DNA of 34,518 bases, taken from positions 1,765,722 through 1,800,239 of the forward strand of contig CP070632.1 in NCBI GenBank assembly GCA_020356065.1. Direction: 5' to 3'. Within the stretch, counting starts at the first letter, position 1; each line of letters opens with the position of its first letter. This document shows positions 2,795 to 4,497 of the stretch, piece by piece. Under the pieces are notes generated by a model. The model had not been told where the DNA came from and searched no databases. It saw nothing but the letters and a program-made list of their open reading frames with translations. This stretch comes from Nitrospiraceae bacterium (GTDB taxonomy: Bacteria; Nitrospirota; Thermodesulfovibrionia; UBA6902). Made by a program: the position numbers and the translations under genes.

Positions 2795-3115
2795 TTGTTA
2801 TTCTCCTTTCGGTATTTTTTTGACTCAGTAACAGAATATGCAAATTGAGTACCAGCGAGCCGAATTATATTTAGTCTTATAATTCGGGGGCCTGGAAGGC
2901 AATCAATGCAGAGAACATACAGGCAGTGTAACTTATAGTTACATATACTGTTTAACGTTACTTTTATCAACTGTTTATTAATTGTATTTTAAAGTGCATT
3001 CGCTCATATGATAAATTTTGGTGAACTCTGTTCCAACGGAGTTTATATGTTATTCGTTAATCATAATTTGTTTATGAAATACTTGCAGCAAGGAATTCCT
3101 TTTGTGCCTGATAAC
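2795..3115. other. Intergenic stretch, no gene seen
   Basis: About 320 AT-rich bases between the lipoprotein gene and the FrnE-like gene. No ORF with a ribosome binding site, RNA gene or clear terminator was found. It should contain the promoter of the minus-strand lipoprotein gene. Confidence 0.5.
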
Positions 3116-3748
3116 TTATAACTCATAACTTCTTTTTTTAACGCCCTTTTCTTCCATAAGTCTTTCGAGCATCTCATAAGGCTGCGTACCTACCAGCCTG
3201 GCATTATTCATCACAAACGTGGGAACTGCGGTTATGCCTTTTTCACTCGCAAGCGACCAATCCTTATCCACATCTGCTTTAAAGGTCCTATAAGAAATAA
3301 CTTCTTCAGCCTCATCACGGGAAAGCCCGACTGAGGCGGTAATATCCATAAGCGCTGAAATCTTTGCGATGTTTATCCCGTCTGCAAAAAAGGCCCTGAA
3401 GACCGCAAAGTGGAATGGATCACCTTTATCTTTGGTTTCAGCCCATTTCCCCAGTTCCTGGGCAAGGCTACTGTTAAAGGTCTTCATACGGTCACCCAAA
3501 GGCAGCCCGGCTTCATCAGCTGCTTTTTTCAACCGGTCTTTCATGGTCTTCAGATCTTGGCTGCTGAAACCGGAAAAGAGATCCTCAAGGAGCGTCCCCT
3601 CTTCCGGCGTTTCAGGATGAAGAGGAAAGGCCCGCCAGCAGACATCGATTTCATATTCCTTTTTTAGTTGTTCAATACGCCCGGTAATGAAATAGCACCA
3701 GGGTCATATGTAATCGGAATATATTTCAAGTGTTGAACGTAAAGTCAT
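3116..3748 (-). CDS. FrnE/DsbA-family thiol oxidoreductase, probable selenoprotein (UPWC)
   Basis: If the in-frame TGA at 3704-3706 is read as Sec, the gene gives 210 aa without another stop. The start is ATG 3748 with AAGGA seven bases upstream. The first 14 residues end in IYSDYI, then Sec15-Pro-Trp-Cys18. Members of the DSBA/FrnE family (PF01323) have CPWC exactly here. The rest matches the family: CWRAFPLHPE, a helical insert, FRAFFADGINI, and the cis-Pro motif AVPTF (Pro176). Sec thus replaces the attacking Cys of the CxxC motif, predicting a fast thiol-disulfide or peroxide-handling oxidoreductase. No signal peptide is visible, so it is probably cytoplasmic, as FrnE is. A SECIS-like hairpin follows the TGA. 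A plain nonsense mutation of a TGT/TGC codon is the alternative; intactness of the remaining 195 codons, the hairpin and the Sec formate dehydrogenase in this window argue against it. Confidence 0.8.
3671..3691 (-). promoter_or_regulatory. Candidate bacterial SECIS hairpin of the FrnE-like gene
   Basis: In the mRNA, UUCAUUAC pairs with GUAUUGAA (seven pairs, one U·U mismatch) around the loop CGGGC. The stem begins 13 bases after the UGA, the loop starts at +21 and has G in its second position. This fits the known bacterial SECIS rules (apical loop about 16-37 bases after UGA, G in the first two loop positions). Confidence 0.6.
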
Positions 3749-3769
3749 TTGTTTATCCTTTTCACACAT

Positions 3770-4250
3770 TACCAGCCTGTCTTCATAAGGAGAAAAAGCC
3801 GGAAAAAACCCTAGTAAAACCGCCTTGCCAATCAGCACCCCTCCAGCCAGGGCAATGCCAACGATAATAGCTTCGAAAATGTCATCAATGATTGATCCAA
3901 TGGCAATGGCAACTTCATTCCCGCCTTTTTTGTCTTCCCAAAGACGCACAATGCATTCCGAACAACGTTTCCTGTGTTCGGCCCCTCTATTGGCAAGGAT
4001 CCGGTTAGCAGTGCTGAACAGTACCGCACACGCGAGAAATCCTGCAACTGATGAAGTTAATCCGTATGGATGTATGCTTCCGCAATCAATTCGAATTCGA
4101 GAATAGAAATCAGCACACGCCTCCGCCGAAACCCATAACAGCCGCAACAAGGCGATGAGAGAGGTTCAGATAGCAGCTTATTACCGCACAAACAAGCAGA
4201 CCTGAACCCACTACCAGACTCCTCAGAAATGCTTCAATCCAGACAGGCAT
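3770..4250 (-). pseudogene. ZIP-family metal transporter remnant, frameshifted
   Basis: From ATG 4250 (GGAAG upstream) the frame reads MPVWIEAFLRSLVVGSG and LSHRLVAAVMGFGGGV, then stops at 4110. The sequence resumes in another frame with LTSSVAGFLACAVLFSTANR, a basic loop, then VAIAIGSIIDDIFEAIIVGIALAGG. This order of hydrophobic segments resembles the ZIP-type permease family, whose 'GxxxDGxPExxxxG' segment seems degraded here to IDDIFEAIIVG. The frame change lies near 4110-4150 and corresponds to an insertion of one base or loss of two. The usual last transmembrane helices are missing. The broken reading frame runs straight into the start of the FrnE-like gene. Identity is moderate; loss of function is likely. 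Confidence 0.5.
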
Positions 4251-4497
4251 ATAATCTTCCGTCAGTTGATACCAGCTATTGTGATAATATGCCAGAATGA
4301 TATCATTTGCAACTGTCAATGAAAGCAAATGCGGCTTTGAGGTCGCTATTTGATAGATGAAAAGAGAAGTTGAATAACATGAGACATCGCTGAACTCGAC
4401 CCAGTATCTCATTAAGAAAGTACGGGATTAAAGCTCTCCACATCCAAGGCAGAGCATCAAAAAGGACTTATAATAATTAATAATACAGCCTGTTTTT

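Follow-up and report, generated by a model that had tools for sequence, protein, structure and literature searches.

The analyzed window comprises 34,518 nucleotides of a Nitrospiraceae genome (GenBank assembly GCA_020356065.1, contig CP070632.1). A gene on its minus strand (3748-3116) encodes a 210-residue protein and ends with a normal stop codon when its single in-frame TGA, codon 15 (3706-3704), is read as selenocysteine (Sec). This TGA occupies the catalytic Cys position of a DsbA/FrnE protein, in the motif SDYI-U-PWC, where Sec is the first residue of UPWC. The following features were assigned to the locus:

3116..3748, minus strand: predicted Sec-containing FrnE/DsbA-type oxidoreductase gene, 210 residues, stop included (read-through frame, Pfam, phmmer, AlphaFold, Foldseek)
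3704..3706, minus strand: TGA codon 15, read as Sec (TGA in 7/7 family copies and in 14 more Sec forms among the phylum matches listed; Cys in other homologues)
3671..3706, minus strand: 36-base block starting with the TGA (identical in 7/7 family copies; P=1.3e-5 against the remainder of the gene)
3672..3690, minus strand: most likely SECIS hairpin, arms 3690-3684/3678-3672, loop 3683-3679, invariant G 3682 (RNAalifold and pair counts, 14 distinct Sec sequences)
3680..3702, minus strand: alternative hairpin, more stable and less conserved, arms 3702-3696/3686-3680 (mutually exclusive with the 3672-3690 hairpin)
3221..3223, minus strand: Pro176 codon; this residue is presumed to be the cis-proline facing the active site (almost unchanged across 34 homologues)
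3755..3759, minus strand: AAGGA, likely ribosome binding site (sequence)

Conventional calling of open reading frames (ORFs) splits this gene, and the active site is lost. Thus, with translation table 11, an ATG-started fragment of 142 aa (3544-3116) was obtained, together with a separate TTG-started ORF that begins at 4150 and terminates at the TGA. The AAGGA motif lies about 8 bases upstream of the ATG at 3748-3746 and likely serves as the ribosome binding site of the Sec-encoding gene. TGA is the stop codon of 7 of the 33 ORFs in the window and is therefore a normal stop here, with no general change of the code. Upstream, on the same strand (3752-4412), two overlapping frames jointly correspond to a single intact gene in the same genus (L022:2155-2979), which is ZupT-like and encodes 275 aa. 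This pair looks like a frameshifted remnant, and its tail stays open into the start of the FrnE gene. No conserved operon partner of the FrnE gene was found in the neighbourhoods compared; only the same-genus locus L022 has an SH3-type protein and the ZupT-like gene in common with the window neighbourhood.

The read-through protein belongs to the DsbA family. The Pfam DSBA domain (PF01323), a thioredoxin fold with a helical insert, covers residues 6-197 (E 2.7e-31), and the best solved relatives identified by phmmer are the structures of Deinococcus radiodurans FrnE (E 8e-19). An AlphaFold2 model, built from an alignment of the window and locus proteins, has a pLDDT of 95.4 and a pTM of 0.91. 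Five FrnE entries rank first for this model in Foldseek, with TM-scores of 0.86-0.89 on the query and 26-27% identity. The active site of the FrnE subfamily, CP(W/F)C with a first Cys that may be Sec, is present as UPWC. Additionally, Pro176 hardly varies in an alignment of 34 homologues, from which L047 was omitted because it contains a stop, and is presumed to be the cis-proline. The C-terminal CXXXXC motif is absent, as the protein has no Cys beyond residue 37. This motif is present in many FrnE proteins but not in all, and FrnE proteins lacking it have been named (PMC8945050); its absence therefore does not exclude membership in the family. No NCBIfam model matched the read-through protein above its cut-off. 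In particular, the model for the Rcas_1661 thioredoxin-like (seleno)lipoprotein (NF041057) gave 40.1 bits against a cut-off of 190, and only its C-terminal part matched. Two further DSBA-domain proteins were found in the genome, with the motifs CPYC and CGHC and apparent export signals; no FrnE-like protein other than the Sec form was found there. The sequence-only reading, which had proposed a FrnE/DsbA gene split by the TGA with no other stop, a ribosome binding site before the ATG, a cis-Pro motif, and a 142-codon fragment as the sole product of automatic pipelines, is confirmed on all of these points, with the frame placed on the minus strand.

The in-frame TGA was found at codon 15 in all 7 copies from the host family, which come from 6 genomes of 4 genera and contain no other internal stop. 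The six relatives in this family share 70-79% identity with the query. Among 47 genomes of the order, none was found to have a Cys form. A survey of 396 genomes from the phylum revealed further TGA forms in G261 and G332 (57 and 54% identical, respectively), in at least 10 genomes of the family f25 (31-35% identical), and in G292 and G054. The families f22 and f29 have Cys at this position, and Cys homologues use TGC or TGT. The in-frame UGA thus aligns with the conserved Cys of homologues, a mark of selenoprotein genes. The start codon is kept 11-14 codons ahead of the TGA in the relatives. Downstream of the 36-base block, dN/dS among the family copies is 0.16-0.34, with a dS of 0.5-0.9. No scatter of other stops or frameshifts, which would have spoken for decay of the gene, was found among the relatives compared. 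On a tree of 63 rows that excludes the Sec/Cys residue and was built by a quick method, with some long branches and an arbitrary root, the Sec/Cys label needs five changes, three of which are forced by well-supported branches. Sec and Cys forms have therefore interconverted, or moved between lineages, several times.

The 36 bases starting with the TGA are identical in 7/7 family copies, whereas the remainder of the gene is 75-84% identical. Among degenerate codons with an invariant amino acid, all 10 in this block are identical, compared with 25 of 88 elsewhere (P=1.3e-5), and the codons immediately 5' of the TGA vary synonymously. Two mutually exclusive hairpins can be formed here. When the block is folded alone, a hairpin arises directly after the UGA (3702-3696/3686-3680, -7.8 to -9.4 kcal/mol). 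One compensatory double change from C-G to A-U keeps a pair of this hairpin in G261/G332, and the f25 Sec forms do not keep the hairpin. In the bSECIS model, an apical loop of 3-9 nt lies 16-37 nt downstream of the UGA and carries a G within its first two positions; the upper stem has 4-16 bp, and the minimum free energy is -7.5 kcal/mol or lower (PMC13188914, Fig. 2A). The 3702-3680 hairpin has a loop without G that lies 8 nt after the UGA, so it departs from this model in both loop G and spacing.

The other hairpin (3690-3684/3678-3672, loop 3683-3679) was found by RNAalifold in 14 distinct Sec sequences, with compensatory changes at 4 of 6 pairs. In the pair counts, this structure is paired in 93.9% of cells, compared with 23-54% when it is slid along the alignment, 77.6% in shuffles, and 78.6% for the 3702-3680 hairpin. 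It is kept better in Sec forms than in Cys forms (mean 6.1 vs. 4.1 of 7 pairs; Mann-Whitney P=8e-6). Its shape agrees with the bSECIS model: the loop CGGGC has 5 nt and is separated from the UGA by 20 nt, the stem of this species consists of 4 bp, a U.U mismatch, and another 3 bp (that of L097, of 8 uninterrupted pairs), and the loop G (column 25; position 3682) is invariant in the 14 distinct Sec sequences. Its energy, about -3.3 kcal/mol here and -6.5 in L097, falls short of the limit of -7.5; the value for f25 is -8.5. Most of the covariation stems from a single split between clades, and it was observed in coding sequence, where amino-acid differences add to the counted changes, so the exact SECIS structure is taken as likely rather than as demonstrated. 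With this reservation, the 3690-3672 hairpin is the likely SECIS of the gene. The 3702-3680 hairpin, the most stable one, was taken as the SECIS at first and lost this rank once the f25 Sec forms were compared. A Geobacteraceae Cys form (L049; 36 bases from TGC, in the 3001-3600 match) also retains every one of the seven pairs in each hairpin, possibly as a vestige of a SECIS that was in use before a change from Sec to Cys.

The genes for Sec synthesis and insertion were found in the same 3.17-Mb genome, selC being represented by 52 nt in front of an assembly gap. The selB gene was identified with 353 bits (cut-off 242), selA with 630 bits, and selD with 329 bits. The selD gene (L016, G000:C1:1606201-1607112) is of the Sec type and itself carries one in-frame TGA, so SelD is probably a selenoprotein as well. 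The selA (G000:C1 3055973-3057319) and selB (3058919-3060778) genes are neighbours with a 405-aa transposase-like gene between them (L001:56-1273), and a 100-N gap lies behind selB. A search of the genome with the Rfam covariance model for tRNA-Sec returned only other tRNAs below the cut-off, neither Rfam nor ARAGORN detected a tRNA-Sec near selB, and a pattern search gave no match. The gap behind selB was suspected to contain selC; BLAST with the selC of a relative placed the gene elsewhere. Its first 52 nt were found at G000:C1:2032116-2032167, including the anticodon loop CTTCAAA with the UCA anticodon, and the remainder falls into another 100-N gap. The two differences from the selC of relatives, read by eye, fall on one D-stem pair, G14-C24 being changed to U14.G24. 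Both substitutions keep the pair as U.G, which argues against decay and suggests a functional selC. Among the relatives that bear the FrnE gene, one (G021, an assembly of 640 contigs) has no selB above the cut-off. The window also contains a formate dehydrogenase gene, fdhA, with a Sec TGA at 12208-12206 followed by a textbook SECIS hairpin. In some relatives, the assemblies break at selC, and tRNA-Sec fragments standing alone were found, either from the 5' end (up to position 27-51) or from the 3' end (the last 22 bases) (L076-L082); these pieces resemble attachment-site remnants of elements integrating at selC.

Taken together, these data indicate that the locus very probably contains a FrnE-type DsbA-family gene in which UGA 15 is decoded as Sec by SelA, SelB, SelC, and SelD via a downstream SECIS hairpin. 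Every check proposed with the sequence-only reading that was run agrees with this view: the Sec machinery was found as selA, selB, selD, and most of selC, the alignment of homologues gave TGA in 7/7 family copies and TGC/TGT in Cys homologues elsewhere, and the canonical Sec formate dehydrogenase noted in the window is indeed present. The SECIS-like hairpin proposed after the TGA fared less simply: constraint and covariation support a SECIS there, but the strongest hairpin is probably not the one recognized by SelB. Points against Sec insertion are the energy of the shared hairpin, above the -7.5 limit, its overlap with a stronger hairpin, the assembly of only the 5' part of selC, and the missing selB hit in G021.

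A pseudogene or a sequencing error, in which a gene once encoding CPWC would have acquired the TGA by chance, would account for a regular stop codon interrupting the frame, and the apparently frameshifted ZupT-like remnant just upstream would fit such decay. The occurrence of the same TGA in 7/7 family copies and in distant Sec forms refutes it, however; the absence of any other stop, a dN/dS of about 0.2, and bases 3' of the TGA that are more conserved than the protein requires point the same way, and this explanation is scarcely credible. Nearly as improbable is the 142-residue protein from the ATG at 3544 as the real product, with the TGA ending an unrelated upstream ORF. Standard ORF calling gives exactly this product, but protein constraint is the same in the region from the TGA to 3544, which also bears the core of the thioredoxin fold, the domain homology spans the TGA (residues 6-197), and the start codon of the relatives is kept 11-14 codons before it. 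SelB-dependent insertion of Cys at UGA is conceivable under limited selenium. Such insertion, or a selenium-free reading of UGA as another amino acid (e.g., Trp or Cys) through suppression or an altered code, is compatible with the sequence, as the sequence alone does not give the identity of the inserted residue. We nevertheless regard it as very unlikely, since TGA is a normal stop for 7/33 window ORFs, the full set of Sec genes is present, the TGA replaces exactly the catalytic Cys, and the block 3' of it is constrained and forms a shared hairpin.

Two further possibilities accept Sec and concern only the signal. The functional SECIS could be the stable 3702-3680 hairpin instead of the shared one; its fold has the lowest energy (-7.8 to -9.4 kcal/mol), and the double change in G261/G332 preserves one of its pairs. 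Its absence from the f25 Sec forms, its lack of the loop G and spacing of the bSECIS model (PMC13188914), and the compensatory changes at four pairs of the competing hairpin make this rather unlikely. Still more doubtful is a switch in which the weak hairpin and the stronger, mutually exclusive one, both invariant in nucleotide sequence, would set the frequency of UGA read-through. If this were true, the 36-base block would act as a regulatory SECIS of a kind that the bSECIS model leaves uncovered. The invariant block with its two competing hairpins provides a clean test case for the minimal strength of a bacterial SECIS.

Under decoding of UGA 15 as Sec, SelB carrying Sec-tRNA-Sec would bind the hairpin located in the coding sequence 14-32 nt downstream and deliver Sec at this codon. 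Sec15 and Cys18 would then stand at the start of helix 1, adjoining Pro176, in a position for thiol/selenol-disulfide exchange: Sec15 would attack a disulfide, Cys18 would resolve the intermediate, and Pro176 would shape the site. We infer both the Sec insertion and this catalytic role. Only 14 residues precede the active site, leaving no room for a signal peptide, so the protein is presumably cytoplasmic. Most likely, it would reduce or isomerise disulfides there. CXXXXC has been proposed to regenerate the active site of D. radiodurans FrnE; judged from the family, the protein without this pair would need an external reductant, such as thioredoxin or a small thiol (PMC8945050).

Sec at the FrnE active site is already on record, which answers a question raised by the sequence-only reading about its frequency there. 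Nine DsbA-like UxxC selenoprotein sequences of COG2761 were reported from the Sargasso Sea in 2005 (PMC1088965), followed by four in bacterial genomes (PMC1794560) and 45 in 41 organisms (PMC5029168); a 2026 review lists the family as "DsbA-like protein form 1" (PMC13188914). The frnE gene of D. radiodurans belongs to the same COG2761 (PMC1978522). Under the names FrnE or 2-hydroxychromene-2-carboxylate isomerase, no relevant selenoprotein was found in the literature, the known family being named "DsbA-like". The protein described here shares with the published DsbA-like selenoproteins COG2761, PF01323, Sec as the first residue of UxxC, and a SECIS within the coding sequence (PMC1088965, PMC5029168, PMC13188914). 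Compared by description, it differs from them, including NIP15863.1 and those from the Sargasso Sea, in its lineage, in having UPWC, and in its weak shared hairpin with a stronger competitor. It resembles D. radiodurans FrnE (DR_0659; PDB 5cnw, 5co3, 5coh, 5cp1, and 5xwh) in fold, cytoplasmic type, and place of the active site, and differs from it in having Sec for the first Cys and in lacking the C-terminal CXXXXC. The NF041057 proteins (DsbG-like in PMC13188914) have a related thioredoxin/DsbA fold with Sec in UxxC; unlike them, the protein of the window has no lipoprotein signal and scores far below their cut-off. The gene is thus a well-supported further case of a selenoprotein family known since 2005, to which it adds a densely sampled lineage, the placement of the structure with FrnE, and the block with two hairpins. 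Sec and Cys forms of the FrnE-type protein occur interspersed in a single phylum (three or more state changes are forced on the tree), so this set of presumably cytoplasmic proteins lends itself to the question of what advantage Sec has over Cys in the FrnE fold.

The relatives G039, G057, G032, G028, and G020 (L027-L031) have another Dsb protein of the Sec type, whose start resembles a signal peptide and whose motif is [TL]DY[RQ]-U-P-[YH]-C; the related protein in the genome studied here (L125) has Cys. Many more genomes at the class level show similarly truncated frames of 140-147 aa.
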